From: Serratia entomophila
Lineage (GTDB): Bacteria; Pseudomonadota; Gammaproteobacteria; Enterobacterales; Enterobacteriaceae
DNA length: 64,000 bases
Assembly: GCF_021462285.1 (NCBI RefSeq)
Contig: NZ_CP082787.1
Location: 496,001 to 560,000, forward strand
Direction: 5' to 3'
How positions within the stretch are numbered: position 1 is the first letter of the stretch; the number at the start of each line of letters is the position of its first letter. The position numbers and the translations under genes are program-made. The notes under the pieces were generated by a model. That model worked only from the letters and a program-made list of their open reading frames with translations. It was not told where the DNA came from and made no database searches. This document shows positions 6,353 through 64,000 of the stretch, one piece after another.

Positions 6353-7447
6353 ATGTCAGCAGCAAACAACTCGCAGCAGCCCATACGGTTCGCCTACTGG
6401 GTGCCGAACGTGTCCGGCGGGCTGGTGATCAGCAACATTCCGCAGCGCACCGGCTGGGATATCGGCTACAACCGCAAGCTGGCGCAGATCGCCGAGCGCG
6501 CCGGTTTCGATTACGCGCTCACCCAGATCCGCTTCACCGCCGGTTACGGCGCCGACAATCAGCACGAGTCGGTGTCGTTTTCGCAGGCGCTGCTGGATTC
6601 CACCGAGAAACTGAAGGTGATCGCCGCGCTGCTGCCGGGGCCGTGGAACCCCACGCTGGCGGCCAAGCAGATCGCCACCATCAGCCACCTTTCGGATGCG
6701 CGCATCGCGGTCAACATCGTCAGCGGCTGGTTCCGCGGCGAGTTCAAGGCCATCGGCGAGCCCTGGCTGGACCACGAAGAGCGCTATCTGCGTTCGGAGG
6801 AGTTCATCCGCTGCCTGCGCGGCATCTGGACCGAGCCCAGCTTCACCTTCGCCGGTGACTTTTACCGCTATCGCGATTACTCGCTGAAGCCCAAGCCGCT
6901 GGATCCGCTGCCGGAGATCTTCCAGGGCGGCAGCTCGCGGGCGGCGCGCGACATGGCGGCGCGGGTGTCGGACTGGTACTTCACCAACGGCAACAGCGTG
7001 GAGGGCATTCGCCAGCAGGTGGACGATCTGCAGACCAAGGCCAGGGCCAACCATCATCGGGTCAAGGTGGGGGTGAACGGCTTCGTCATCGCGCGCGATA
7101 GCGAGCAGGAGGCGCAGGCGGTGCTGCAGGAGATTATCGACCACGCCAACCCGGAGGCGGTGCAAGGATTCGGCCACGAAGTGAAAAACGCCGGGGCGGC
7201 TTCGCCGGAGGGCGAGGGCAACTGGGCCAAATCCTCGTTCGAGGACCTGGTGCAGTACAACGACGGCTTTAAAACCAACCTGATCGGCACGCCGCAGCAA
7301 ATCGCCGAGCGCATCATCGCGCTGAAAGACGCCGGGGTGGACCTGATGCTGCTGGCGTTCCTGCACTTCCAGGAGGAGGTAGAGTTTTTCGGCCGCGAGG
7401 TGATCCCGCTGGTGCGCGAACTGGAGCGCCGGCGGGCCGCGGCCTGA
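6353..7447 (+). CDS. sfnG: Dimethylsulfone monooxygenase SfnG (FMNH2-dependent)
   Basis: A 364-residue flavin monooxygenase of the luciferase-like family. SfnG cleaves dimethylsulfone to methanesulfinate using reduced FMN supplied by a separate reductase, allowing organosulfur to serve as a sulfur source. The sequence follows Pseudomonas SfnG over its length: FAYWVPNVSGGLV near the N-terminus, NIVSGW at 121-126, IFQGGSSRAARDMAARVSDW, then EGEGNWAKSSFEDLVQYNDG and the C-terminal HFQEEVEFFGREV. The start has a strong ribosome site (GGGAGAGG). It is a single gene with no adjacent reductase, and its stop almost touches the convergent gene at 7450. Regulation by sulfur status is probable but not shown. 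Confidence 0.92.
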   Translation: MSAANNSQQPIRFAYWVPNVSGGLVISNIPQRTGWDIGYNRKLAQIAERAGFDYALTQIRFTAGYGADNQHESVSFSQALLDSTEKLKVIAALLPGPWNPTLAAKQIATISHLSDARIAVNIVSGWFRGEFKAIGEPWLDHEERYLRSEEFIRCLRGIWTEPSFTFAGDFYRYRDYSLKPKPLDPLPEIFQGGSSRAARDMAARVSDWYFTNGNSVEGIRQQVDDLQTKARANHHRVKVGVNGFVIARDSEQEAQAVLQEIIDHANPEAVQGFGHEVKNAGAASPEGEGNWAKSSFEDLVQYNDGFKTNLIGTPQQIAERIIALKDAGVDLMLLAFLHFQEEVEFFGREVIPLVRELERRRAAA

Positions 7448-7449
7448 GA

Positions 7450-8151
7450 TCAGTAAATCTTCCTGGCGTTGATGCCGGCGGGGAAAATGCCGGTGGCGAA
7501 GATGTGCCCGTCCACCTGGATATGGTCGTCGGGCAGCATCTCCAGCGGGTATTCCCCGGCCAGATAGTTGAGGAAGTTGTTGCGATCGTCGATCGAAGGG
7601 AAGCCGAGCAGATCGTAATAGAACAGCGACGCGATCAGCCCGTGATGTTCGGGGATCCGCTTCAGCAGCGCCGCCGACGGGAACGGCAGGTGGAAGAAGA
7701 ACGCGCAGGCGTTCAGCAGCCCCTGCTCCTTCAGCGCCTGGCCGCAGGGCAACAGCTGATAGTCGTCGATGCAGATGATGTCATCCGGGCACAGGTATTC
7801 GCTGGCGATATCGGCGAAGCGCCGGTTGAGCTGGCGGTAGGCGCGGTAGTTCTCCGGCGTGAAGTGCGCTTTCTCCGGCTGGTTATGGAACACCGGCCAC
7901 AGGCCGTCGTGGTAGTAGCCCTGATAGTGGCGGCAAAATTCCTCTATCGACAGCGGGAAGGTCACCTGCTCATAGCCGGCGCTGTGCCGGTAGCTGATCG
8001 GGCGCCGGCCGAAGTTCTGCACCTCGCCGTTCCAGCCCAGCCACAGCCCCTGATCGTCGTCCACCAGGCCGCCCGCCGACAAGGTTTGGCTGGCGCAGGC
8101 CAGATCCTGGCTGTCGCACTGCTTATTCGAGATCAACACCAAACGAGACAT
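7450..8151 (-). CDS. Half-length GT20 protein (N-terminal domain of trehalose-6-phosphate synthase only)
   Basis: 233 residues that align with the first half of OtsA (about 474 residues): MSRLVLISN at the start, GLWLGWNGE, LWPVFHN, DDIICIDDYQLLPCG and FFFHLPFPS. The His of FFxHxPFP, catalytic in OtsA, is kept. OtsA IHDYH is changed to IDDYQ and the Arg at position 10 to Lys. The protein stops at FATGIFPAGIN, exactly where the second Rossmann domain with the UDP-glucose-binding Arg/Lys pair should begin. A complete glycosyl transfer is therefore unlikely without a partner; it may bind a sugar phosphate or act in an altered reaction. It is the last gene of a leftward cluster with a GNAT acetyltransferase and a glutamine-synthetase-like ligase. 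Confidence 0.75.
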   Translation of the reverse strand: MSRLVLISNKQCDSQDLACASQTLSAGGLVDDDQGLWLGWNGEVQNFGRRPISYRHSAGYEQVTFPLSIEEFCRHYQGYYHDGLWPVFHNQPEKAHFTPENYRAYRQLNRRFADIASEYLCPDDIICIDDYQLLPCGQALKEQGLLNACAFFFHLPFPSAALLKRIPEHHGLIASLFYYDLLGFPSIDDRNNFLNYLAGEYPLEMLPDDHIQVDGHIFATGIFPAGINARKIY

Positions 8152-8164
8152 GGTCGCTTCCTTC

Positions 8165-8569
8165 TCAGTGAATGGATCGGGCGGTTTGCAGCGCGCCGCA
8201 GGCCCGCCACGGCGTCAGGCCGGCCGGCGAGCTCACGCGCAGGCCGCGCATCGCCGGGTGCGCCAGGCAGCAGCGCATCAGCCAACTGCCCAGCCCGACG
8301 CCGCGGTATTCGGCGCTGATGAACAGCAGGCTGACCGACGCCCGGGTGGCGTAGTCGGTCACCACCCGGGCGAAGCCGAGCTGGTGGCGTTTGCGATACA
8401 GGCCAAAGCACAGGTTGCGGCTATCCAGCGCGGCCGGATCGATGTCCTGCCGCAGGCAGCGGCGCAGGAAATCGGCGTCCAGTAATCGCCGGTCGGTGCT
8501 GATATGAAAGGCGCCTTTGCGCCAGCACAGGATGGGCTGATGTTCAGTGAAGATCGGTAGCGACTGCAT
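8165..8569 (-). CDS. GNAT-family N-acetyltransferase
   Basis: 134 residues with the GNAT fold signature: LGFARVVTDYATRASVSLLF (strands 2-4) and the acetyl-CoA loop EYRGVGLGSWLM (Q/R-x-x-G-x-G/A type) about two thirds along. The ATG at 8567-8569 has an AAGGA site; ten further residues upstream have no start support. It lies 13 bp before the half-GT20 gene and 74 bp after the glutamine-synthetase-like gene on the same strand, so it probably belongs to one transcript. The substrate is unknown; an amine or amino-sugar product of the neighbouring ligase is a reasonable guess. Confidence 0.72.
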   Translation of the reverse strand: MQSLPIFTEHQPILCWRKGAFHISTDRRLLDADFLRRCLRQDIDPAALDSRNLCFGLYRKRHQLGFARVVTDYATRASVSLLFISAEYRGVGLGSWLMRCCLAHPAMRGLRVSSPAGLTPWRACGALQTARSIH

Positions 8570-10014: not shown

Positions 10015-10251
10015 GGCGCCCTCCTAATCGGAGGCGAACAACGACCAGCGGCAGGGATAAACGCATGAGACAACCACTCTTGTGAGGCCATATTGGCGAT
10101 GTGAAAAGGGTATCTGCGGCGTGCAAAACTGTCTGTAAAAACGCCGTAACGTTAACGGGCCGCGGAATAAAAATGCCGTAAAGAGCGCGGCGGGTTGACC
10201 GGGTCGGCACGGTCTATACTGGCGAGACGGGCCGTAGAAGGAGAGATAACG

Positions 10252-10551
10252 ATGAAGAGAATAGGGCTGCTTATCGCCGCGCTGGCCGCGTTCAACGCCA
10301 CTGCGTCTTCCCCACAGGCGTGGGCCAAGAGCGAACGGGCGATGCGCGCCGCCTGCCTGAAAGCCAGCGGGCTAAAAAACGCCAGGGTGGAAGGGGAGAT
10401 TATTCACTACGGTGACGACGTCGGTTATTCGGCGCTGTTTATCGGCGGCCGCTACCCGCAGCCGTTTATGAAGAATAAGTCGGGCAGGGAGCTGTGTTTA
10501 TATCAGCGCGCCACACAGAAGGCGGCGGTGCAGGCGGTGGAGGGGGATTAG
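10252..10551 (+). CDS. Small exported protein of unknown function (99 aa)
   Basis: Start at the ATG at 10252 after AAGGAGA. A signal peptide is evident (MKRIG then LLIAALAAF, cleavage near the AWA-K junction at about residue 25). The mature part has two Cys (in AACLKASG and ELCLYQ) that could form a disulfide, and a central beta-like GDDVGYSALFIGG. Not recognised; probably periplasmic. It diverges from the glutamine-synthetase-like gene and its stop overlaps the end of the convergent membrane-protein gene by 4 bp. Confidence 0.6.
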   Translation: MKRIGLLIAALAAFNATASSPQAWAKSERAMRAACLKASGLKNARVEGEIIHYGDDVGYSALFIGGRYPQPFMKNKSGRELCLYQRATQKAAVQAVEGD

Positions 10552-10973
10552 ACCGACTTCAGGAGATAGTTCAGGAGACACATGATGATTAAGAGTGCTC
10601 CTTGTAACATTAATAATCTGAAATCATTACGGATCCAATTTTTTAACCTTGGTGATGAAGCTGCTCGAACGAAATCGTAGGTTTTGGGACTTAGCCAAAC
10701 GTTGCGAGTCAGTTTTAATTTCCGGTTGTTCAAAATCCAACGAAACCACTGGGCTTTTAGTGAAACACCGATGAAGTTAAGGTTGTCCGCTATCACGACA
10801 AAAAGTGGAACAGGGTGTTTACTCACCACATAGTGTTGATAAAAGAGATCAAACTCTTTTTTATGAAGTCGATAGTAAATAAATTGGATAATAGCGATAA
10901 GAAGGAAAAGAAAGAATAGTAATACCACTAAGAGTTTTATCTCTTTTATGTAAGACTCAATATAATTGATCAT
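10548..10973 (-). CDS. Membrane protein, second tandem paralogue (candidate immunity protein)
   Basis: 141 residues starting 2 bp after the stop of its upstream paralogue, with no strong ribosome site of its own, so probably translated by coupling. It has an N-terminal transmembrane helix (about residues 13-33), the shared motif HKKEFDLFYQHY, SLKAQWFRWIL, LSPKTYDFV, and a second hydrophobic segment at the C-terminus. It is a clear paralogue of the protein at 10976-11374. Two related small membrane proteins behind a Gly/Ala-rich hydrophobic-tail protein is a layout typical of a pore-forming toxin and immunity proteins. The role is inferred. Confidence 0.6.
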   Translation of the reverse strand: MINYIESYIKEIKLLVVLLFFLFLLIAIIQFIYYRLHKKEFDLFYQHYVVSKHPVPLFVVIADNLNFIGVSLKAQWFRWILNNRKLKLTRNVWLSPKTYDFVRAASSPRLKNWIRNDFRLLMLQGALLIIMCLLNYLLKSV

Positions 10974-51221: not shown

Positions 51222-51489
51222 GGTTTCTCCTTGGCGGGTGGGGGCAAAACCACAGCATAAGCCAGCCCCGGTGAAGGAACCACCGCTTTTCGCGCCAGGC
51301 GACAATCATTAACACATTAATCATTTCGGGCTTCCCGCGGCGTCAAGTTGTGATTTGTTTAACATGTAAACAATCCCGCCCTTGCATTTCCCCCATACGA
51401 ATGCTTTTTATAGAGAGACAGGCCGCAGTCAGGCAAAGGCTATCCGAAATCAGTTGATTGTTAATTTGTTAATGATGGCGAGGGCGGGT

Positions 51490-52248
51490 ATGGACATTCA
51501 GGTAGAGCGGTTGTCAGCGGTTGTCGATGCGGTGGCCAGCCCGCGCTTCTATCCCAGCCTGTTGGCCTGGCTGGAAGGGTTCTTCGCCTTCGATAGCGCC
51601 ATTGTCTACGGTTTCGAACGCGGCCAGGCGCCGCGCTGCCTGATGAAAGCGGAGCGGGAAAACAGCGACGCGGTCAACCAACTCTACCAGCAGGGCGCTT
51701 ACCTGCAGGATCCGTTTTACCAGGCGCTGAACGGCGGCGGTTCGCATGAGGTGTGCACGCTGCGCCAGCTGGCGCCCTGCGGCTTTTACCACAGCGATTA
51801 TTACCACAACTTTTACCGCAAAACCGGCTGGCGCGATGAAGCCGGCGTTCTGCTGCAGCTCACGCCGCAGCGCGGGTTGGGGGTGTTCTTCGGCTCGGCG
51901 CACCGGGCGGTGGGGGTGCGTTATCCGCAACTGGCGGCTCTGCGCGGCGCGCTGACGCTGGTGAAAAGCGTGGCGCGTTTGCACGGCGAAGTGGTGGCCG
52001 CGCCGGCGCGGGCAGAGAGCCAGGATGAGGGCGGTGCGCAGGCGCGCTATTTGCTGACGCCGCGCGAGCGCGAAATCGTCGATCTGATCCTCGCCGGCCA
52101 CGGTTCGCAGCAGATTGCCGAGCGGCTGTTCATCAGCCTGGGCACGGTGAAAAATCACCGCAAACACATCTACAGCAAGCTGAATATCGCTTCGCAGGCC
52201 GAGCTGTTCAGCCTGCTGCTGTCCACCCCGCAGCGGCGCAGCGCCTGA
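51490..52248 (+). CDS. LuxR-family regulator of the amine/alcohol cluster
   Basis: 252 residues from the ATG at 51490 (GAGGGCGGG before it); an upstream ATG at 51382 gives a longer, less likely N-terminus. C-terminal LuxR helix-turn-helix (LTPREREIVDLILAGHGSQQ, then IAERLFISLGTVKNHRKHIY). The N-terminal ~170 residues are a sensor domain with FFAFDSAIVYGFERG and YHNFYRKTGWRDE. The same architecture as the MoaR-like protein at 56614-57261. No adjacent autoinducer synthase, so the ligand is probably a metabolite. Confidence 0.85.
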   Translation: MDIQVERLSAVVDAVASPRFYPSLLAWLEGFFAFDSAIVYGFERGQAPRCLMKAERENSDAVNQLYQQGAYLQDPFYQALNGGGSHEVCTLRQLAPCGFYHSDYYHNFYRKTGWRDEAGVLLQLTPQRGLGVFFGSAHRAVGVRYPQLAALRGALTLVKSVARLHGEVVAAPARAESQDEGGAQARYLLTPREREIVDLILAGHGSQQIAERLFISLGTVKNHRKHIYSKLNIASQAELFSLLLSTPQRRSA

Positions 52249-52348
52249 ATGTTAAGTTTTGGTATCAAATGTCCCCAAGGGGACATGGCGGCGGCGCTGG
52301 GCGCTCCTGATAATCCGATGTTATGGCTGAGGGTAACGGGAGTGTGCA

Positions 52349-53650
52349 GTGAATAACGAAATCGAATCTTTAACCTACTACGCGGCGACCAAAAAATACG
52401 ATCTGCGCTTCCCGACGCTGGAAGAGGATCTGGACGTTGACGTGGTGATCATCGGCGGCGGCTTTTCCGGCATCAACACCGCGCTGGAGCTGGCGGAGAA
52501 GGGCATTACCAACATCGCCATCCTGGAGGGCCGCCATCTGGGCTACGGCGGCACCGGCCGCAACGGCGGGCAGGTGATGGCCGGCATCGGCCACGATCTC
52601 GAGAAGATCAAGCGCCATGTCGGCCCGTCCGGGCTGGAAACCATCTTTAAAATCAGCAACCTTGGCGCCGGCATTATCCGCGAGCGCATCAAGAAGTACC
52701 GCATCGACGCCGACTTTTGCTTCGGCTACGGCTACCTCGGCAGCAATGCGCGCCAGGAGAAAACCCTGCGCGGCTGGCTGAAGGAGTTCAAGGCGGTATC
52801 GCCCGACGAAGAGATCGAGCTCTACACCGGCGCAGAGGTAAAACAGGTGGTGGGCTCCGACGCCTATACCTGCGCGCTGAAGCACATGGGCGGCGGGCAC
52901 GTGCATTCGCTCAATCTGTTGTTGGGTGAGGCCCAGGCGCTGAGCGGCTACGGCGTGAAAATCTTCGAAAACAGCAGCGTGCTGAACGTGGAATACGGTT
53001 CGCGCATCACCGTGCGCACCGCGATAGGCTCGGTGCGCGCCAACAAGATGCTGTGGGCGTGCAACGGTTTCCTCAACGGCATGGACCCTTATATTTACGG
53101 CAAAACCATCAACACCTATGCTTTCCAGCTGGCGACCGAGCCGCTGCCGGACGAATTGATCCGCCGGATCAGCCCGATCCGCGGCGCCTACAGCGATATC
53201 CGGCCGGTGATCGATTACTACCGGGTGACCAATGAAAACCGGCTGCTGTTCGGCAGCGCCACTCGTTTGATCGAGTATTTCCCGTCGGATCTCAAGGCCT
53301 GGAACCGCAACCTGATGCTGAAGGTGTTCCCCTATTTGCAGGACGTGAAGATCGATCTGGCCTGGGGCGGCCCGCTGTGCTGCAGCGCCAACTTGTTCCC
53401 GCAGATCGGTACGCTGCCGGACCACGACAACGTGTTCTACGTGCAGGGGTATTCCGGCTTCGGCGTGACGCCGAGCCATATCGTCTGCAAGGTGCTGGCG
53501 GAGGGCATGAGCGAAGGCTCCGATCGTTACGATCTGATGAGTTCGATCCCGCACGTCAATATCTTCGGCAAGGACAAGCTGCGCCGGGTGATGACCACCG
53601 CCGGCAAAGTTTGGCACCAGACATCCGGCTATTGGAAAGGCCGCCGTTAA
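52349..53650 (+). CDS. FAD-dependent amine oxidase (PuuB-like)
   Basis: 433 residues with a GTG start. N-terminal FAD motif VVIIGGGFSGINTALELAEK at about 30-50, GYGGTGRNGGQVMAG, GGGHVHSLNLLLGEAQALSG and the C-terminal QGYSGFGVTPSHIVCKVLAEG. Sequence course and length match gamma-glutamylputrescine oxidase PuuB. It oxidises an amine to an aldehyde and ammonia. Followed by a cupin and an aldehyde dehydrogenase, which would complete the step to the acid. Confidence 0.85.
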   Translation: MNNEIESLTYYAATKKYDLRFPTLEEDLDVDVVIIGGGFSGINTALELAEKGITNIAILEGRHLGYGGTGRNGGQVMAGIGHDLEKIKRHVGPSGLETIFKISNLGAGIIRERIKKYRIDADFCFGYGYLGSNARQEKTLRGWLKEFKAVSPDEEIELYTGAEVKQVVGSDAYTCALKHMGGGHVHSLNLLLGEAQALSGYGVKIFENSSVLNVEYGSRITVRTAIGSVRANKMLWACNGFLNGMDPYIYGKTINTYAFQLATEPLPDELIRRISPIRGAYSDIRPVIDYYRVTNENRLLFGSATRLIEYFPSDLKAWNRNLMLKVFPYLQDVKIDLAWGGPLCCSANLFPQIGTLPDHDNVFYVQGYSGFGVTPSHIVCKVLAEGMSEGSDRYDLMSSIPHVNIFGKDKLRRVMTTAGKVWHQTSGYWKGRR

Positions 53651-53668: not shown

Positions 53669-54034
53669 ATGCAACCCTTACTGCTCAAGCAACCGCTGCC
53701 GGAACTGCTGGAAATCGGCAGCGTCAGCAACCTGGGCGCCACGGTGATCGCCGGTACGCCGAACGTCGGCGTGGCCAGCATCTTTGGCGAACCGACCGAC
53801 AACCTGAACTGCGGTATTTTCAGCTGCACCCGCGGCACCTTCGTGATGGAGTATCCGTTCGCCGAGCACGCCACCGTGTGGGAAGGCAGCGCGACGCTGA
53901 CCGACGAACGCACCGGCAAATCGGTGCAGTATCGGGCCGGCGACTCCTGGTTTGTGGAGAAAGGCACCCCGGTGCGCTGGGAGATCACGTCGGATCGTTT
54001 TGTAAAACACTACCTCGCCATTGTGGCGGGGTGA
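53669..54034 (+). CDS. Small cupin protein (DUF861/EutQ-like)
   Basis: 121 residues: single cupin barrel with YPFAEHATVWEGSATLTDER (motif 1 with His) and YRAGDSWFVEKGTPVRWEI (motif 2). Such cupins accompany amine and ethanolamine pathways, but their chemistry is often unknown. Lies 18 bp after the oxidase and 30 bp before the aldehyde dehydrogenase. Confidence 0.8.
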   Translation: MQPLLLKQPLPELLEIGSVSNLGATVIAGTPNVGVASIFGEPTDNLNCGIFSCTRGTFVMEYPFAEHATVWEGSATLTDERTGKSVQYRAGDSWFVEKGTPVRWEITSDRFVKHYLAIVAG

Positions 54035-54064: not shown

Positions 54065-55558
54065 ATGGGCGATATTACGCTGTTGCCGCAGGTGACGGCA
54101 TTTCTCGGCCGCCGTCACGGCCACTATATTCAGGGCCAGGCGCAGCCCGGCCAGGGCGCAGAAAGCTTTGCGGTGATCAATCCGGGCACCGGGCAGGCCA
54201 TCGCGCAGGTCAACGAGGGCGGGCAGGCCGAGGTAGACGCGGCGATGCAGGCGGCGCGGGCGGCCTTTGAGGGCGCCTGGGCCCGGGTGTCGCCGATGGA
54301 GCGCGGCAACTGCCTGACGCGGCTGGCGGATCTGCTGCAGGCCAACCGTGAAGAGCTGGCGCAGTTGGAAAGCCTGTGCTCCGGCAAAACCATTCAGCTG
54401 GCGCGCGGCCTGGAGATCGACATGGCCGCGCAGTTTCTGCGTTATTTCGCCGGCTGGTCGAGCAAGATCAGCGGCGAAACCCTCAACGTTTCTCTGCCGT
54501 CGTTCAACGGCGAACAGTACACCGCTTTCACCCGGCGCGAACCGCTGGGGGTGGTGGTAGGCATCATCCCGTGGAACTTCTCGATCATGATCGCCATCTG
54601 GAAGCTGGCGGCGGCGCTGACCTGCGGCTGCACGGTGGTGCTGAAGCCGAGCGAATACACGCCGCTGACCATGCTGCGGGTGGCCGAGCTGGCGAAGGAG
54701 GCGGGCATTCCCGACGGCGCCATCAACGTGGTGAACGGCTCCGGCGCGCGCCTTGGTCCGGCGCTGATCGCGCATCCGCACTGCGCCAAGGTCACCTTTA
54801 CCGGCTCGGTGCCGACCGGCATTGCGGTCGGCAAGGCGGCGATGGAGCAGGGCATCATCCGCGCCACGCTGGAGCTGGGCGGCAAGAACGGCGCGGCCTT
54901 CCTGGCGGACGTCTCGGTGGAGAAAATGGTCGACGGCATCATCGAGGCCGGTTACCTCAATCAGGGGCAGATTTGCGCCGCGGCCGAGCGTTTTTACCTG
55001 CCGAAAAGCCATATCGATGCGGTGCTGGAATTGCTGGCCCAGCGGCTGGGGGCAATGAAGGTCGGCTCTTCGCTGGATGAAAGCACCGAGGTCGGCCCGC
55101 TGGCCAACGAGGCGCACTACCGCAAGGTGCTGAGCCTGTTCGATCGCGCGCGCGCCGACGGCAGCCAGATTGTCTGCGGCGGCCATGCGCTGGCCGGCCC
55201 GGGGTTCTTCGTGGCGCCGACCGCCATCCGCGCCAACGGACCGAACGACGTGCTGATGCGCGAGGAGACCTTCGGCCCGGTGGGCACCTTCCTGGCCTAC
55301 GAAGACGAAGAGCAGATGATCGCCATGATGAACGATTCGCCCTACGGGCTGGCGGCCAGCCTGTGGACCAACGACCTCAGCAAGGCGATGCGCATGATCC
55401 CGCGCATCCAGGCCGGGACGGTGTGGGTCAACATGCATACCTTCCTCGATCCGGCGTTGCCGTTCGGCGGGGTGAAGTCGTCCGGCATCGGCCGTGAGTT
55501 CGGCAGCGCCTTTATCGAGCATTACACCGAGCTGAAATCGGTGATGGTGCGTTACTGA
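54065..55558 (+). CDS. NAD(P)-dependent aldehyde dehydrogenase (PuuC/phenylacetaldehyde type)
   Basis: 497 residues with the complete ALDH set: GIIPWNFSIMIAIWKLAAAL, KPSEYTPLT, TFTGSVPTGIAVGKAA, catalytic Glu in LELGGKNGA and catalytic Cys in GQICAAAERFY. C-terminal GGVKSSGIGREFG. Oxidises the aldehyde formed by the upstream amine oxidase or by the divergent Fe-alcohol dehydrogenase. Operon end; a strong terminator follows. Confidence 0.92.
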   Translation: MGDITLLPQVTAFLGRRHGHYIQGQAQPGQGAESFAVINPGTGQAIAQVNEGGQAEVDAAMQAARAAFEGAWARVSPMERGNCLTRLADLLQANREELAQLESLCSGKTIQLARGLEIDMAAQFLRYFAGWSSKISGETLNVSLPSFNGEQYTAFTRREPLGVVVGIIPWNFSIMIAIWKLAAALTCGCTVVLKPSEYTPLTMLRVAELAKEAGIPDGAINVVNGSGARLGPALIAHPHCAKVTFTGSVPTGIAVGKAAMEQGIIRATLELGGKNGAAFLADVSVEKMVDGIIEAGYLNQGQICAAAERFYLPKSHIDAVLELLAQRLGAMKVGSSLDESTEVGPLANEAHYRKVLSLFDRARADGSQIVCGGHALAGPGFFVAPTAIRANGPNDVLMREETFGPVGTFLAYEDEEQMIAMMNDSPYGLAASLWTNDLSKAMRMIPRIQAGTVWVNMHTFLDPALPFGGVKSSGIGREFGSAFIEHYTELKSVMVRY

Positions 55559-56613: not shown

Positions 56614-57261
56614 TCAGCCGTGGGCGATAAAACCGCTGGAAACCAGCTCGGTGCGGTTCACCACCTCGGTCTTGGCGAAGATATTGCGCATGTGGGTTTT
56701 CACCGTCGACAGGGAAATGCCCAGCTTGAGCGCGATGCGTTTGTTGCTGGCGCCTTCGCGCACCATATTGACGATTTCCTGCTCTTTGGCGGTCAGCAGC
56801 TGCGCTTCGCCCCCGGGCAGCAGATCGCGCGTCGCCAGTTCGATCAGCGGCAGCACCGCCCGCAGGCGGCCGCGCTCCACCTCGGTAAACGGCGTATCGC
56901 GGATCAGCGACACCCCGGCGATAATGCGTTTGCGCTGGCGGATGAAAATCTCGGTAATGTCGCGCATGTCATTTGGCAACATAAAGTCATGATAGTAATG
57001 ACGATTGTCGGCGATCATCGCCGAACTCATGGCGACCATGGTGGTGTCTTGCCGGTGGAAGTTGGCCGGTTTCATCGGATCCAATTGCTGGAAGTGGTTC
57101 AAATACTGGTGATGGGTTTGGTCGGAGATGCCGTGCAAAATATAGTGATCGGGCCGCAGGTCCGGATCGACCAGATAAAACACCCCGGCGGACACTGGGA
57201 TCAGATGCGCAATGGTCGCCAGACAGCTGTTGATAAAGGCATCGGAAGCTGTGGTGTGCAT
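56614..57261 (-). CDS. moaR: LuxR-type regulator, MoaR-like (monoamine regulon)
   Basis: 215 residues from the ATG at 57259-57261 (GGAGG upstream). C-terminal helix-turn-helix: LTAKEQEIVNMVREGASNKR, then LGISLSTVKTHMRNIFAK. N-terminal sensor domain of about 140 residues. Klebsiella MoaR is a LuxR-type activator (about 220 residues) of the monoamine regulon, which includes arylsulfatase and moaEF. The gene lies next to atsA and the window also contains moaF, so MoaR is the best reading, though the name rests on context and not on a computed alignment. Confidence 0.72.
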   Translation of the reverse strand: MHTTASDAFINSCLATIAHLIPVSAGVFYLVDPDLRPDHYILHGISDQTHHQYLNHFQQLDPMKPANFHRQDTTMVAMSSAMIADNRHYYHDFMLPNDMRDITEIFIRQRKRIIAGVSLIRDTPFTEVERGRLRAVLPLIELATRDLLPGGEAQLLTAKEQEIVNMVREGASNKRIALKLGISLSTVKTHMRNIFAKTEVVNRTELVSSGFIAHG

Positions 57262-57749
57262 GATTACTTTCCTCCCTTTATCATTCAATCTGAGAGTATT
57301 TGTGGTCAATATATGAACGATACAAGCATAGTTGCAGCAAATCGGCAACACAATAAAAACATATTAACAACGTGAGCCCGATTGCAATAAAATACATAAA
57401 TAACAAGATGACAGCTGGCCTTATATCGGCATAACACCCTGGCCTATTGTCAGTTTCATTAATACATTAATGAAATTTTGTGCCTTTTTGTGCCCTTTTC
57501 CCACTGAATTTACAGCGGTTTCCTATTATTAACCCATTGCGGTAGCGCCAGCGTTCGGCGTGCTGCATTCCACCGTTACCGTTCCGGCTCCTCGTTCTTA
57601 AGAACGATAGCCAGGCTTTTCCGTTGCTTCCTAGACTGCAAATGAAGATAACGGCAGCCGGCGGCAAAAGGGTAAGACGAAAAAACTATGACCTTTCTCG
57701 GTTTGAGGGGTTCGGTTGTTCAACCCGCATGGCAATTGCAGGGAACGAG
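57262..57749. promoter_or_regulatory. Intergenic region between moaR-like gene and atsA
   Basis: 488 bp without a supported gene. The first 150 bp (AT-rich) carry the promoter of the leftward regulator. The right part contains the palindrome at 57593-57606 and a -10 like hexamer (TAGACT, 57632-57637). An atsA frame extends upstream to 57624 but without ribosome signals. Confidence 0.55.
57593..57606 (+). promoter_or_regulatory. Palindromic activator site upstream of atsA (candidate MoaR box)
   Basis: CGTTCTTAAGAACG is a perfect 14-bp palindrome, followed by ATAGCCAGGCTTTTCC and, 25 bp after the palindrome, TAGACT. The same arrangement with CGTCCTTAAGGACG occurs before the transporter gene at 60658-60671. 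Confidence 0.75.
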
Positions 57750-59468
57750 ATGATGATGAAGAAGAAAACGCTGGCGGTGGCGCTGGGCGGTGCACTGGGC
57801 GGCATGGCGCACGCGGCGGACGCCGAGCGGCCCAACGTGCTGATTATTTTGGTCGACGACATGGGGTATTCCGACATCAGCCCGTTCGGCGGCGAGATCC
57901 CCACCCCTAACCTGCAGGCGCTGGCCGAACAGGGCGTGCGCATGAGCCAGTATTACACCTCGCCGATGTCCGCACCGGCGCGTTCGATGCTGATGACCGG
58001 CAACACCAATCAGCAGGCCGGCATGGGCGGCATGTGGTGGTATGAAAGCACTGCGGCGCAGCCGGGGTACGAGATGCGCCTGACCGACCGGGTGACCACC
58101 CTGCCCGAACGTTTCCGCGATGCCGGCTACGCCACCATGATGGCGGGCAAATGGCATCTGGGGTATGTCGATGGCGCCAAGCCGACCGACCGCGGCTTTG
58201 AGCGCGCGTTCGCCTTTATGGGCGGAGGCACCAGCCATTTCGACGATGCCAAGCCGCTGGGCACCGTCGAAGCCTTCCATACTTTTTACACCCTGAACGG
58301 CAAGCGCGTCTCGCTGCCGCAGGATTTCTATTCCAGCAAGGCCTACGCCACCCAGCTGGAGCAGTGGATCCGCGATACGCCGCAGGATAAGCCGATCTTC
58401 GCTTACCTGGCCTTTACCGCGCCGCACGATCCGCTGCAGGCGCCGGACGACTGGATCGCCAGGTTCGACGGCAAATATGACGCCGGTTACCAGCAGGCCT
58501 ATCAGCAACGCATTCAGCGGCTGAAGGCGTTGGGGATCATTTCCGACCATACGCCGATGCCGACGCTGACGCTGGATAAGGAATGGCGGGCGATGACGCC
58601 GGAGCAGCAGAAATACGCGGCGAAAACCATGCAGGTGTATGCGGCGATGATCGCCTATATGGACGATCAGGTCGGCGAGGTGTTGAAGACGCTGAAACAG
58701 ACCGGGCGCGACAAGAACACGGTGGTGATTTTCGCCACCGACAACGGCGCCAATCCGGCCAGCGGTTTTTACTACGGCTCGGACCCGGCGTACTGGCGGC
58801 AGTTCGACAACAGCTACGCCAATATCGGCCGCAAGGGCTCCTTTATCTCTTACGGCCCGCACTGGGCTAACGTCAGCGATGCGCCTTACGCCAACTACCA
58901 TAAAACCACCAGCGCGCAGGGCGGCATCAATACCGATTTCATCATCTCGGCACCGCAGCTGAAGGGGCGTGGCGGCATCGATAAAACGCCGATGGCGGTG
59001 TATGACATCGCGCCGACGCTGTACGAGTACGCCGGTATCGATGCCGGTAAGCCGTTGAAGGGCAAACCGACGTTGCCGATGGTGGGGGTCAGCTTCAAGC
59101 GTTATTTCAGCGGCGATGCCGACAGCGTGCCGCGCTCGACCTACGGCGTGGAGCTGCATAATCAGGCGGCCTATGTGGACGGCATCTGGAAGCTGCGCCG
59201 GCTGGTGAAAGCCGGACCGACGGCGCAGATGGCCCCCTGGGGGCTGTTCAACCTGCAGGACGATCCGCTCGAGACGCGCGACCTGGCCGCCGCCCACCCC
59301 GAGCGGGTTAAGCGGTTGAGCGAGGCGTATCGGCAGTACGCCGACAAAGGCATGGTGATCGAAGCCAAGGGCGCCAAGATCGATTACCGCGGGGTGGACG
59401 CTAAAACCGGCGGCTACATTGGCCTCGATCCCGTCACCCATAAGCCCTTGCCGCAGGCGGCGGAATGA
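57750..59468 (+). CDS. atsA: Arylsulfatase, serine-type
   Basis: 572 residues; three consecutive ATG codons at 57750-57758 leave the exact start open, and the first is used. Signal peptide of about 22 residues ([15 protein letters not shown]). The catalytic motif [11 protein letters not shown] has Ser74, which is oxidised to formylglycine by the maturase encoded next; the Klebsiella enzyme uses Ser72. Further active-site parts: [14 protein letters not shown] with the metal Asp pair, [10 protein letters not shown] (Lys/His) and FATDNGANP. Exported to the periplasm, hydrolyses aryl sulfate esters to supply sulfate. Stop overlaps atsB by 4 bp. Confidence 0.94.
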
Positions 59469-60649
59469 ACCTGGCCCAGCTGCGCGCGCAGCAGATCCCG
59501 ATCGCCGCTGAACCGCGCGCGACGGCGCCTTTCCACCTGCTGGTGAAGCCTATTGGCGCCGGCTGCAATCTGGCCTGCAACTACTGCTACTACCCGCAGC
59601 GACAGGGCGAGCGAACGAAAAAGATGGACGACGGGCTGCTGGAAGATTTTATCCGCCGCTATATCTCCGCCCAGCCGCGCTACAGCCGCGAGATTAACTT
59701 TGTCTGGCAGGGCGGTGAGCCGCTGCTGGCGGGGATCGGCTTTTACAAGCGGGCGTTGGCGCTGCAGCAAAAGTACGCGCCGCCGGGCGTACGCATCAGC
59801 AACAGCCTGCAGACCAACGGCACGTTGCTGAACGCCGCCTGGTGCCGGTTGTTCAAGCAGCACGAGTTTATTATCGGCGTCAGCCTTGACGGCGACCGGC
59901 AGATTCAGGATGCGCATCGGCCGGATAAGCGCGGCGGCGGCAGCTATGAGGCGGCGCTGCGCGGCATCGCGCTGCTGCAGCAGTACCGCATCGAGTTCAA
60001 CCTGCTGGTGGTGGTGCACGACGGCGTGGCGGATCGCGCGCAGGCAATGTACGACCATTTTGTCGCCCTCGGCGCCCGTTACCTGCAGTTTCAACCGCTG
60101 ATGCTGGAGGGCGACGCCCCGGCCGCCGGGTACGGGCTGAACGCCGCCAACTGGGGGCGCTTCATGCTGGCGGTCTACCGCCGCTGGCGCGGGCAGGGGC
60201 ATTGGGGCAAGGTGTTCGTGATGAACATCGAGCACGTTTACGCGCAGTATTTCACCCAGGTCAGCCCCAGCTGCGTGCATGCCGAGCGCTGCGGCGGCAA
60301 TCTGGTGATGGAGCCGGATGGCCGCCTCTATGCCTGCGATCACCTGATCGACGCGCAGCACTATCTGGGGCATTTCGATCTGCGCACGCCGTTCGCGGAC
60401 CATGCCGCGGCGGCGGCCGCGATGGCGTTCGGCCAGGATAAAAGCCTGCGCCGCGAATGCCAGAGCTGCAGCGTGAAAAGCGTCTGCCAGGGCGGCTGCC
60501 CGGCGCACGTCGGCGCCGATCGCTACAATCGGCTGTGCGCCGGTTATTACGCCTTCTTTTCCGCGCTGCTTGAGCCGCTGCGCGCCTATCCGCGCAGCCC
60601 GCAGGGCGCCATGCAGTGGCGCGCCGCTGTGAGCGGCAGCACAGGTTGA
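59465..60649 (+). CDS. atsB: Anaerobic sulfatase-maturating enzyme (radical SAM)
   Basis: 394 residues; ATGA overlap with atsA. Radical SAM motif CNLACNYC (Cys34, Cys38, Cys41) and an SPASM-type C-terminus ([17 protein letters not shown]) for two additional 4Fe-4S clusters. The Klebsiella AtsB has nearly the same length. It oxidises Ser74 of the sulfatase to formylglycine with S-adenosylmethionine. Cytoplasmic; acts before AtsA is exported. Confidence 0.95.
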
Positions 60650-60657
60650 GCCCCGCT

Positions 60658-60671
60658 CGTCCTTAAGGACG
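60658..60671 (+). promoter_or_regulatory. Palindromic activator site upstream of the transporter-moaF operon (candidate MoaR box)
   Basis: CGTCCTTAAGGACG (perfect 14-bp palindrome), followed by ATAGTCAGCATTTTCC and TATAGT at 60697-60702, 25 bp after the palindrome. The spacing equals that before atsA. It lies 9 bp after the atsB stop. Confidence 0.75.
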
Positions 60672-60770
60672 ATAGTCAGCATTTTCCTTTCCTCTCTATA
60701 GTGAGATTACCGCCGCTGGCGGTGAAAAAACCTGCAAACAGCAGGGCGAAAACTATAAGAGGAAATAACC

Positions 60771-62264
60771 ATGAACCTGTCGTCGCGGCTGCACGCCCAT
60801 CTTGAACGGGGCAAGGTCGGATTCCCCACCACGCTGGCCAGTTCGGTCGGCGTGATTATGGCCAGTCCGGTGATCCTGACGGTCACCAGCGGCTTCGGCA
60901 TCGGCGGCGACACCTTCGCGCTGGCGATGCTGATCGCCTTCATCATGATGCAGGCTCAGCTCACCACCTTCTCCGAAGCGGCGGCGATGCTGCCGACCTC
61001 CGGCTCGGTATATGACTATATCGCCTGCGGCATGGGGCGTTTTTTCGCCATCACCGGGGCGCTTTCCGCCTACCTGATCGTGCACATCTTCGCCGGCACC
61101 GCCGAAACCATCCTGTCCGGCATCATGGCGCTGGTGAACTTCGAGCACCTCAACACCCTGATGGAAACCCACAACAGCTCCTGGATGGTCGGCGTCGGGC
61201 TGGTGATTATTTTTGGCCTGCTCAATGCGTTCGGCATCGAAGCCTTCGGCAAGGCGGAGATCGTGCTGACCTTCGCCATGTGGAGCACGCTGGTGGCTTT
61301 CGGCGTCGTCGGCCTGCTGTCGCCGCACGCGGTGCCGCTGGAAGGCTGGTTCGGCAGCACGCTGAGCCTGAACGATCCCTTTGCGGTGTTCAGCCTGATC
61401 GGTATGGCGATGTTCATGTTCGTCGGCTGCGAACTGGTGACGCCGATGGCGCCGGAGATCAAACGCTCGGCGCAGGTGATCCCGCGCGCCATGGCGTTGG
61501 GGTTGTGCGGCGTGGCGGTATGCATGGCGCTGTACGGCGCGGCGCTCAGCCATCAGGTGGAAAACGTGGTGGTGGACGCCGCCGGCGGCGTGCGGCTGCT
61601 GGATACGCCGATGGCCATTCCGGCCTTTGCCGGCCAGGTGATGGGCCAGTTCGGCAAATATTGGCTGGGCATCGGGCTGCTGCTGGCCGGCGCGGCGACC
61701 ATCAACACGCTGATGGCGGCGGTGCCGCGCATCTTGTACGGCATGGCGCTGGACGGTGCGCTGCCGCGTATGTTCGCCTATCTGCATCCGCGCTTCAAAA
61801 CGCCGGTGGTCGGCATTCTGGTGGCGGTGCTGATCCCCTGCGTGCACGCCTTCGCCATCCAGGGCAACCTCGATCGCATCATTCCGTTGGTGCTGGCGGC
61901 GGTGTGCGCCTGGGGCGTGGCCTACCTGCTGGTGACCTGCTCGGTGGTGATCCTGCGCATTCGTCGCCCGGACCTGCCGCGCGCCTATAAATCGCCGTGG
62001 TTCCCGCTGCCGCAGGTAGTCTCCAGCGTCGGCATCGTGCTGGCGATCTTCTATATCACCCCGCCGGGCATGAACCCGCGCGACGTCTACATTCCCTTCG
62101 GCTGGATGCTCGGCCTGACCGCCGCCTACGCGCTGTTCTGGACGCTGTGCGTGCAGAAGGTCAATCCGTTCAAACCGGTGCCGGTCGAGCAGGTGTTGGA
62201 AAACGCCTTCGCCAAAGCGGAAAAAGGGGAGGCGCAGTTTGATCGGCTTACTTCCCTCACTTAA
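60771..62264 (+). CDS. APC-superfamily amino-acid/amine permease
   Basis: 497 residues, about 12-14 transmembrane helices. The N-terminal segment GFPTTLASSVGVIMASPVIL (as VGFPTTLASSVG) and TPMAPEIKRSAQVIPRAM match APC transporters. First gene of the operon behind the second palindrome, so it probably imports a monoamine or aromatic amine. AAGAGGAAATAACC precedes the ATG. The next gene overlaps it by 26 bp. Confidence 0.85.
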   Translation: MNLSSRLHAHLERGKVGFPTTLASSVGVIMASPVILTVTSGFGIGGDTFALAMLIAFIMMQAQLTTFSEAAAMLPTSGSVYDYIACGMGRFFAITGALSAYLIVHIFAGTAETILSGIMALVNFEHLNTLMETHNSSWMVGVGLVIIFGLLNAFGIEAFGKAEIVLTFAMWSTLVAFGVVGLLSPHAVPLEGWFGSTLSLNDPFAVFSLIGMAMFMFVGCELVTPMAPEIKRSAQVIPRAMALGLCGVAVCMALYGAALSHQVENVVVDAAGGVRLLDTPMAIPAFAGQVMGQFGKYWLGIGLLLAGAATINTLMAAVPRILYGMALDGALPRMFAYLHPRFKTPVVGILVAVLIPCVHAFAIQGNLDRIIPLVLAAVCAWGVAYLLVTCSVVILRIRRPDLPRAYKSPWFPLPQVVSSVGIVLAIFYITPPGMNPRDVYIPFGWMLGLTAAYALFWTLCVQKVNPFKPVPVEQVLENAFAKAEKGEAQFDRLTSLT

Positions 62265-62826
62265 CCGCGCCTGGCGGCGGGCGCCGACGGGCTACCAGCC
62301 GGGCGCCACCCTCGACCGGCTGGCGCAGAGCCTGCGGCCCTATGCCTGCGAACGTTTGGCGCCGTGCCTGCTGCGGCTGCAACTGCCGCAGGGGCCGCTG
62401 ATTGAGATCAGCGAGCAGGTTCAGGCGCTGTTTATGGCGCACATCGTCAGCCATCGTTTTCGGCTGCAGGGGAACTGCGTTTTGCAGACGCCGCTGGCGC
62501 TGAACGTGATTGCCGGCGGCTGGCTGCGGCGGCGCGGGGTTATCTACCGCAGCCGCCAAAAGCATCCCGACGCGCAGCGGCTGCATGATGCGCTGCAGCG
62601 CTACCCGCAGATTGGCGAAACGCTGGCGCAGCTGGATTTTCGCCGCGTTCGGCTGGCGGTGGACGCCGGGCGCTGGACGCTGGATATCGAACATTTTGCC
62701 GCGTCGGAGGTGGTCAGCCGTTTGCCGGCCGGCCGCCGCTACCTGCGGCTGGACGCCGAACAGCGGCGGCTGCTGTTGAGCAGCCTGCTGATGTTCGGCC
62801 AACTGATGGAGAAGCTCAATGAGTAG
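62239..62826 (+). CDS. DUF3156-like protein of unknown function
   Basis: 195 residues with a TTG start chosen because GGGGAGG lies 6 bp before it, inside the end of the permease gene. Basic N-terminus, no membrane helix; LQGNCVLQTPLALNVIAGGW and YRSRQKHPDAQRLHDALQRY are its distinctive parts. I recall a DUF3156 family of this size next to amine transporters, but am not certain. Stop overlaps the SDR start by 8 bp. Confidence 0.72.
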   Translation: MIGLLPSLNRAWRRAPTGYQPGATLDRLAQSLRPYACERLAPCLLRLQLPQGPLIEISEQVQALFMAHIVSHRFRLQGNCVLQTPLALNVIAGGWLRRRGVIYRSRQKHPDAQRLHDALQRYPQIGETLAQLDFRRVRLAVDAGRWTLDIEHFAASEVVSRLPAGRRYLRLDAEQRRLLLSSLLMFGQLMEKLNE

Positions 62827-63601
62827 AGTCGTAGTGATTACCGGCGGCGGCACCGGGGTGGGCGCCGCCTGCGCCCGCCTGCTGGCCGCGCAGGGCGATC
62901 GGGTGTTTATCATCGGCCGCCGGCCTGAACCCCTGGCGGCGCTGGCGAAGGAGATCGGCGCGCAGGCGCTGGTGGGCGACGCCTCGAGCGGCGAAAGCTG
63001 GACCACGCAGCTGCTGCCGGCCATTTTGCGGCAGGCCGGGCGCATCGACTGCCTGATCGGCAGCGCCGGCGGCATGGGGTTCAAGCGCATCACCGAGATG
63101 ACCGACCAACAGTGGCAGCAGGCGATGGACAGCAACCTCAACAGCGCCTTCGCCAGCGCGCGCGCCTGCCTGCCGGAGCTGGTGAAAAGCGGCGGCAACC
63201 TGCTGTTTGTGGCCTCTATCGCCTCGCTGGCCGCCGGCCCGGAGGTGTGCGGCTACGTCACCGCCAAGCATGCGCTGATCGGCCTGATGCGCTCCATCGC
63301 CCGCGATTACGGTCCGCAGGGCGTGCGCGCCAACGCAATCTGCCCGGGCTGGGTCACCACGCCGATGGCGGATGAAGAGATGCAGCTGCTGATGGATGCC
63401 CATCAGATTTCATTGGAGCAGGCCTACCGCATGGTGTGCCGCGACGTGCCGCTGCGCCGCCCGGCCAGCGCCGAAGAAATCGCCCGCGCCTGCCGTTTTC
63501 TCTGTTCGCCGGACGCTTCAATCATCACCGGCGCGGCGCTGGTGGCCGACGGCGGTTCCACCATCGTCGACGTGCCGACGCTGGCTTTCACTTCCCTGTA
63601 A
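62819..63601 (+). CDS. Short-chain dehydrogenase of the monoamine (moa) operon
   Basis: 260 residues. VVITGGGTGVGAACARLLAA at the N-terminus (NAD loop), SASGM-like GSAGG, catalytic Ser in VASIASLAAG and Tyr/Lys in YVTAKHALIG. Corresponds by position to the ~30-kDa dehydrogenase encoded before moaF in Klebsiella (also called MoaE, unrelated to the molybdopterin protein). Substrate unknown. Confidence 0.8.
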   Translation: MSRVVVITGGGTGVGAACARLLAAQGDRVFIIGRRPEPLAALAKEIGAQALVGDASSGESWTTQLLPAILRQAGRIDCLIGSAGGMGFKRITEMTDQQWQQAMDSNLNSAFASARACLPELVKSGGNLLFVASIASLAAGPEVCGYVTAKHALIGLMRSIARDYGPQGVRANAICPGWVTTPMADEEMQLLMDAHQISLEQAYRMVCRDVPLRRPASAEEIARACRFLCSPDASIITGAALVADGGSTIVDVPTLAFTSL

Positions 63602-63611
63602 GGAGCGGCAA

Positions 63612-64000
63612 ATGAGTTCAGAAGCGGTATTTATTCAGGTCGGCGCGCTGGCGGAGGGCTTTGCGCCGCACGGCAACACGCTGGAACAGCAGCACGGGTT
63701 GGCGGGAACCCTGTTGACGCTGCGCTTTAGCGACGGCGAATCGCTGCGCTGCCGGTTCAGCGACGACCAAACGCTGGACTGGGGCGAGCAGCGCGGCGTC
63801 GCCTACCGCGCCACCAGCATCCGCCCCGGCGTGCTGTTTATCGACTTCCTCGATCCCCTGCGGCCCAACGCCAGCGTTACGCTGGTGTGCGATCGCAATC
63901 AGGGCAACTTCACCGCGGTGTACGGCCAACTGCCGAACGAGAGCCAGACGCGGCTGGACGCCTTCAGCCGGGTGGAGCAGGGGCTGCCGCTGACGGCGGT
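63612..64000 (+). CDS. moaF: MoaF family protein, N-terminal part (runs off the right edge)
   Basis: The first 129 residues of a MoaF-type protein: VFIQVGALAEGFAPHGNTLE at the start, LAGTLLTLRFSDGESLRCRF, then RPGVLFIDFLDP and RNQGNFTAVYGQLPNESQ. MoaF of Klebsiella is a member of the tyramine-inducible moa operon, needed for monoamine use; its chemistry is not known. GGAG stands before the ATG. The C-terminus is outside the window. Confidence 0.85.
   Translation, partial: MSSEAVFIQVGALAEGFAPHGNTLEQQHGLAGTLLTLRFSDGESLRCRFSDDQTLDWGEQRGVAYRATSIRPGVLFIDFLDPLRPNASVTLVCDRNQGNFTAVYGQLPNESQTRLDAFSRVEQGLPLTA

Follow-up and report, generated by a model that had tools for sequence, protein, structure and literature searches.

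Two perfect 14-bp palindromes in the genome of Serratia entomophila are very likely operators through which the neighbouring LuxR-type regulator, MoaR, would activate the arylsulfatase genes atsAB and a permease-moaF operon. They lie in a stretch of 64,000 nucleotides (contig NZ_CP082787.1, positions 496,001 to 560,000), which is referred to below as the window. The first palindrome, CGTTCTTAAGAACG, is located 5′ of atsA, and the second, CGTCCTTAAGGACG, 5′ of the operon encoding the permease, a DUF3156 protein, a moaE-like short-chain dehydrogenase and moaF. Each is followed by AT, and each is separated by 25 bp from a -10 hexamer. Both palindromes and their identical distance to the hexamers had been reported in the initial annotation of the window, and the coordinates and the sequence are confirmed here. 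The features concerned are as follows.

56614..57261, minus strand: MoaR-like LuxR-type regulator (Pfam GerE helix-turn-helix; relative in Klebsiella aerogenes NCTC10006; fold)
57593..57606, plus strand: predicted MoaR box 1, CGTTCTTAAGAACG followed by AT, before atsA
57632..57637, plus strand: -10 hexamer TAGACT, 25 bp past box 1
57750..59468, plus strand: atsA, arylsulfatase (Sulfatase PF00884; tblastn matches at the loci of relatives; annotated K. aerogenes counterpart)
59465..60649, plus strand: atsB, anaerobic sulfatase maturase of the radical S-adenosylmethionine type (TIGR03942, 392 bits, cut-off 349)
60658..60671, plus strand: predicted MoaR box 2, CGTCCTTAAGGACG followed by AT, before the permease operon
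60697..60702, plus strand: -10 hexamer TATAGT, 25 bp past box 2 (spacing conserved)
60771..62264, plus strand: amino-acid/amine permease, APC superfamily (AA_permease_2)
62239..62826, plus strand: DUF3156 protein of the permease operon (Pfam)
62819..63601, plus strand: moaE-like short-chain dehydrogenase (Pfam; K. aerogenes counterpart annotated MoaE)
63612..64000, plus strand: start of moaF, which runs beyond the window end (K. aerogenes counterpart annotated MoaF)

The 5,147,822-bp genome contains exactly two exact copies of the palindrome CGTYCTTAAGRACG, one before atsAB and one before the permease operon. The generalised consensus CGTYCTTNNGRACGAT likewise has only two exact copies, at the same two promoters. 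Looser matches behave differently. With up to three mismatches the window contains six sites, which is the chance level (mean 5.19 in 100 shuffles), and with up to two mismatches the genome holds 34 sites against 139 for the reversed-pattern control per strand, or 113 against 175 when both strands are counted. As such matches are at or below the control, meaning can be attached only to exact or near-exact copies at the right place. Further targets in the same genome were rejected: the one-mismatch matches at 1088713 and 1456184 both fall within coding frames, as read from the bases, and the two-mismatch matches were set aside, being fewer than those of the reversed control.

The regulator next to the boxes carries the GerE/LuxR-type C-terminal helix-turn-helix (PF00196, 55.6 bits) at residues 155-208. 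It is 61% identical to a Klebsiella pneumoniae protein (locus L127), which in turn shows 94.7% identity over 89% of its length to the NCTC10006 reading frame annotated as "Monoamine regulon transcriptional regulator", located beside annotated MoaE, MoaF, AtsA and AtsB. The neighbourhood of atsAB, moaE and moaF is present both in the window and in the loci of relatives. The domain, the homology and the gene neighbourhood thus bear out the earlier proposal that a MoaR-like protein of the LuxR type lies beside the boxes. Its structure model has a mean pLDDT (predicted local distance difference test score) of 86; the nearest solved folds over the full length are RhlR, SdiA and QscR at a template modelling (TM) score of about 0.5, and GAF domains are also close over about 150 columns, so that only the fold class is assigned. 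The Pfam scan of MoaR gives no autoinducer-domain match. A small-molecule ligand is likely. A second MoaR-like match adjoins moaR in Photorhabdus khanii (L115) and Providencia stuartii (L157). The more distant relatives of MoaR, at 30-34% identity, occur in Azoarcus, Pseudomonas and Burkholderia plasmids, and the one such region that was read (L301) contains no box.

The conservation of the box was followed through a scan of GTDB genomes with a MoaR alignment, which returned 76 loci. Among them 64 are moaR loci, and the remaining 12 (L161-L172), which match the helix-turn-helix part or little more, were left out. At the 61 permease starts of these loci (the split permease of Erwinia persicina CFBP8797 being counted twice), the consensus is found exactly in 41 cases, with one mismatch in 8 and with two in 11, and it is absent from one; 60/61 starts thus carry a box at up to two mismatches, compared with 3/1559 for the permuted-consensus control at the same threshold. 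The box also stands before atsA in 8/8 named Serratia loci in which this gene heads an operon (5 exact, 3 with one or two mismatches), before atsB in 6/6 and before moaE in 4/5 of the operons which they head. The 64 named loci (1.29 Mb) contain 67 exact matches. In 61 of these, the match is on the coding strand and at most 320 bp before a regulon gene; the remaining six are no more than 450 bp from a regulon gene or moaR. Each of 12 permuted palindromes gives no match in the same 1.29 Mb. Boxes before ats or moa operons or the permease come from Klebsiella, Raoultella, Enterobacter, Pluralibacter, Salmonella, Photorhabdus, Providencia, Xenorhabdus, Erwinia and other genera. An example is K. 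aerogenes NCTC10006, in which five promoters carry the box: those of atsB, moaE and a PuuB-like oxidase with one mismatch each, that of the permease with two and that of an aldehyde dehydrogenase with none. The initial annotation had named the absence of the palindrome before atsA and moa genes of other Enterobacterales as the outcome that would speak against it; the generalised box is present from Serratia to Klebsiella.

The form of the box varies between genera. A strict 14-mer with TTAAG in its middle is mainly the Serratia form, and its central and 5′ positions vary outside this genus, so a definition by the strict 14-mer alone was rejected. Across the genera the 14-mer is followed by A (100%) and T (97%), values that arise partly by construction because this AT belonged to the search consensus, then by A or G and then mostly by G. 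The shared tail ATAG(C/T)CAG described earlier is therefore kept in its first bases, as part of the 3′ arm of the box, and its remaining bases are not strongly kept; the TTTTCC block described with it is found in Serratia and is largely a feature of that genus. In Serratia the box can also outlive its operon. Of the nine named loci that lack atsAB and have the permease, eight (L097, L099, L101, L102, L104, L105, L107 and L112) retain the former atsA box in the interval between moaR and the permease, in addition to the permease box. Such a retained box is a deletion scar. In S. oryzae, another open frame lies between the two boxes.

The second line of evidence is the co-occurrence of box and regulator in a set of 295 genomes of the family, which partly overlaps with the named loci (e.g., L099 and G170), so that the two are not independent samples. 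MoaR-like proteins (E <=1e-20) occur in 27 of these genomes; these 27, and no others, also have the permease ortholog (E <=1e-100). The exact box is found in 25/27 genomes with MoaR and in 7/268 without it (Fisher p = 9e-28, a value to be read with caution, as the genomes are related and the counts are not independent events). The exact boxes of the seven genomes without MoaR all fall within reading frames of unrelated genes. Across the 295 genomes, a count from the result tables gives 43 sites for the box and 13 for the reversed control, which puts the matches in MoaR-free genomes at the chance level. Around the MoaR genes of the 27 genomes, the relaxed box precedes the permease, atsA or atsB, moaE, the oxidase and the aldehyde dehydrogenase. 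Boxes can also be remote from moaR: the permease box of G273 and the atsB box of G074 are both on contigs other than that of moaR. The pattern CGTNCTTAAGNACG, which matches 22/295 genomes, leads to the same genes: of its 15 Y/R-type sites, 13 (in G000, G025, G254, G170, G078, G273, G074, G016 and G032) are found at ats genes, the permease or moaR, each with ATAG directly after it. Its A/G and mixed types were rejected, being outside regulon genes in the loci inspected (one locus per genome); locus L015, of one of these types, has only a 30% aldehyde-dehydrogenase relative nearby. Taken with the conservation across genera, the co-occurrence in the 295 genomes supports the earlier suggestion in which the palindrome before ats and moa genes serves as the site of MoaR, and on these sequence grounds it is very probably a MoaR box.

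The position of the box relative to the promoter was examined in 96 boxes, corresponding to 92 distinct sequences, which were picked by a consensus match with up to two mismatches. A TANNNT hexamer starts 25 bp past the 14-mer in 58/92 regions, with lesser peaks at 36 bp (13 regions) and 27 bp (11 regions). Outside the box, the columns of which were chosen by consensus, the information content is highest at the -10. A good -35 element is wanting in nearly all regions, as the best match to TTGACA at a spacing of 16-18 reaches 5/6 in 1/92 regions, 4/6 in 29/92 and fewer in the rest. With the hexamer taken as -12 to -7, the center of the box falls at -44.5, close to the -45 that had been put forward as an activator geometry. 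The mostly fixed 25-bp spacing together with the poor -35 has the look of an activator-dependent promoter.

From the sequence, place, spacing and conservation of the box and its co-occurrence with MoaR, the following course of binding and activation can be proposed. A MoaR dimer, probably carrying an aromatic amine or the corresponding aldehyde in its N-terminal domain, would bind the inverted repeat, in its full form ATCGTYCTTWAGRACGAT, centered about 44.5 bp before the transcription start. Bound in this way, it would recruit RNA polymerase to promoters with a -10 but without a good -35. Such activation would switch on atsAB, leading to the release of sulfate from aryl sulfates, and the permease-DUF3156-moaE-moaF operon, which would serve amine uptake and metabolism.

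Apart from the relatedness of the genomes mentioned above, several observations weigh against this interpretation. Klebsiella-type permease promoters have a degenerate 5′ half-site (CCACCTT, two mismatches) and a less clear -10, and Pluralibacter gergoviae has no permease box and a moaE box with three mismatches. Two matches with two mismatches lie off promoters (510 and 9023) in the same 20.6 kb of NCTC10006, and therefore the permease box of that strain rests on its position. In MoaR genomes, two exact extended boxes (G153:595093 and G128:C26) are inside the open frames of other genes, and two of the 15 Y/R-type sites of CGTNCTTAAGNACG, one in G031 and the other on contig 28 of G074 (its second site), are away from regulon genes and lack the following AT. 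The clearest departure concerns the copper amine oxidase gene tynA. Work on K. aerogenes ties MoaR to monoamine oxidase, and a scan with the palindrome had been expected to find tynA or other amine-oxidase genes. A PF01179 search finds no copper amine oxidase in the genome of the window and finds one in 8/27 MoaR genomes, in none of which does the fetched stretch upstream of tynA (~330-500 bp) contain a box at up to two mismatches. The expectation thus fails for tynA in these genomes, and the gene is rejected as a target. The amine oxidase tied to the MoaR box is the flavin adenine dinucleotide (FAD)-dependent, PuuB-like enzyme, and that of Serratia carries a different box.

The different box is a sister palindrome at the FAD amine-oxidase operon of the window, and it is new in this analysis. 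The operon lies next to a second LuxR-type regulator, designated luxR1, as listed below.

51382..52248, plus strand: luxR1, second LuxR-type regulator (GerE); translation probably begins some 90-100 bp inside the frame given
52269..52286, plus strand: sister box ATGTCCCCAAGGGGACAT, proposed site of luxR1 (conserved in luxR1 loci)
52309..52314, plus strand: -10-like GATAAT, 22 bp past the sister box
52349..53650, plus strand: FAD-dependent amine oxidase, DAO family, PuuB-like (Pfam; K. aerogenes counterpart annotated puuB_3)
53669..54034, plus strand: EutQ-like cupin (Pfam)
54065..55558, plus strand: aldehyde dehydrogenase, nearest StyD, phenylacetaldehyde dehydrogenase (557.7 bits, below the cut-off of 850)

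The sister box, which is located between luxR1 and the oxidase, is an exact match to ATRTCCCYAARGGGACAT. It follows the distribution of luxR1, as 13 of the 15 luxR1 genomes among the 295 contain it, exactly and once each, compared with 0/280 others (p = 7e-21). In the named luxR1 loci, it stands before the oxidase in 33/33 cases (exactly in 31, at one mismatch in 2), and GATAAT lies 22 bp past it in 32/33; it is absent before the oxidase (5-7 mismatches) in 13 named loci without luxR1. The MoaR box shows the opposite distribution, occurring before the oxidase in 12 of these 13 loci (the exception being Prodigiosinella) and in 0/33 loci with luxR1. The absence of luxR1 in the named loci refers to the fetched stretch (up to about 21 kb), and its genome-wide absence is established in the 295-genome set. 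The recognition helices of the two regulators also differ. That of MoaR, STVKTH(L/M)RNI, is nearly uniform, with one RHI variant, and that of luxR1 reads GTVKNHRKNI in the 31 named relatives shown and HRKHI in the protein of the window. The half-sites, AAGRACGAT for MoaR and ARGGGACAT for luxR1, differ chiefly at three inner positions. Among the 15 luxR1 relatives, four (L255, L257, L258 and L260) have one or two inner stop codons, and their genomes retain the sister box.

In a tree of 27 oxidases, chosen from 46, those preceded by the MoaR box form one side of a fully supported branch. The MoaR tree gives the same split with weak support (59/95). A single split in the trees indicates one handover or one ancient difference, and repeated handovers of the oxidase are not needed. 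It is rather probable, with some reserve, that control of one aromatic-amine pathway is split between two LuxR-type paralogs by means of two related, distinct 18-bp palindromes with matching helix differences, and that in one branch (Klebsiella, Raoultella, Enterobacter, Pluralibacter, Salmonella, Chimaeribacter, Erwinia and Entomohabitans), where luxR1 is missing, the oxidase operon came under the MoaR box in a single handover by box replacement.

The presence of a second GerE-type regulator in the same window raises the question of whether the palindromes before atsA and the permease are bound by a protein other than MoaR, most plausibly luxR1. This regulator is confined to MoaR genomes (15/15), which would suit such a role. 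However, luxR1 (E <=1e-40) is absent from 12 of the 27 MoaR genomes, 11 of which (all except G002) still have an exact MoaR box, and it has its own box before the oxidase operon and a different recognition helix. These points, which bear on luxR1 alone, make binding by another regulator quite unlikely. The direction of the regulation can be weighed in a similar way. An operator near a promoter could act either way, and MoaR could in principle repress from its site, with the amine lifting the repression. Little probability is given to such repression, as the box precedes the -10 at a largely constant distance, in the place of a -35 that is itself poor in nearly all regions, and MoaR of K. aerogenes is described as a positive regulator.

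The palindromes might finally have no function, being either the remnant of a duplicated promoter or a chance match. The two copies do lie in one locus, with similar surrounding sequence within Serratia, and the bare 14-mer, with any base allowed at position 4, is no commoner than the reversed control in most genomes. Nevertheless, the box is kept across genera with diverged flanks and at separate promoters (atsB, moaE, permease, oxidase and aldehyde dehydrogenase), and outside the consensus-selected columns the information content peaks at the -10, which leaves this explanation scarcely credible. The preferred reading thus remains that of activator sites of MoaR.

The closest known system is the monoamine regulon of K. 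aerogenes, which shares with the window a homologous regulator, atsA, atsB, moaE, moaF and the same box. It differs in gene order, which is atsB-atsA in K. aerogenes and atsA-atsB in the window, where the permease heads the moaE-moaF operon. The genome of the window moreover lacks a copper amine oxidase, and its FAD oxidase operon carries the different box. In the NCTC10006 record (L299), atsA is annotated in two pieces (6522-8256) and moaR as a shortened gene (10151-10600), and several further genes near them are annotated in the same manner. A set of moaR, permease, DUF3156, moaF and short-chain dehydrogenase genes is also found on a conjugative Klebsiella variicola plasmid (L300), with a one-mismatch box at 6821-6836. 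The activators LuxR and TraR bind 18-20-bp inverted-repeat boxes near -42.5. MoaR resembles them in its GerE helix-turn-helix, in the palindrome over the -35 region and in its nearest solved folds, and it differs from them in the missing autoinducer-domain match, in the expected ligand, an aromatic amine or aldehyde, and in the operator sequence, which is unlike the lux and tra boxes. FeaR, which controls tynA-feaB, likewise acts in aromatic-amine catabolism in Enterobacterales, but it belongs to the AraC family, and the tynA regions examined are without a MoaR box.

A defined operator for MoaR would, if true, make the monoamine regulon mappable by sequence in any genome, with a predicted core of ats, moa, the permease and the Klebsiella-type FAD amine oxidase, and without tynA. 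The paired regulators and boxes within one window provide a clean natural case of target separation between paralogous LuxR-type proteins, in which the helix residues and box bases to be exchanged between MoaR and luxR1 are already apparent. This paired arrangement is the part most worth following.

The gene order of the region, from left to right, is luxR1, the FAD amine oxidase, the cupin, the aldehyde dehydrogenase, an alpha/beta hydrolase and the MoaR-like regulator (both on the opposite strand), atsA, atsB, the permease, DUF3156, the moaE-like dehydrogenase and moaF. A second short-chain dehydrogenase lies directly past the window end. The open frames beyond it are taken from their translations, without database support, to be an HpcR-like regulator and hpa (4-hydroxyphenylacetate) genes. 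Such an order fits a possible route from tyramine to 4-hydroxyphenylacetate and onward.

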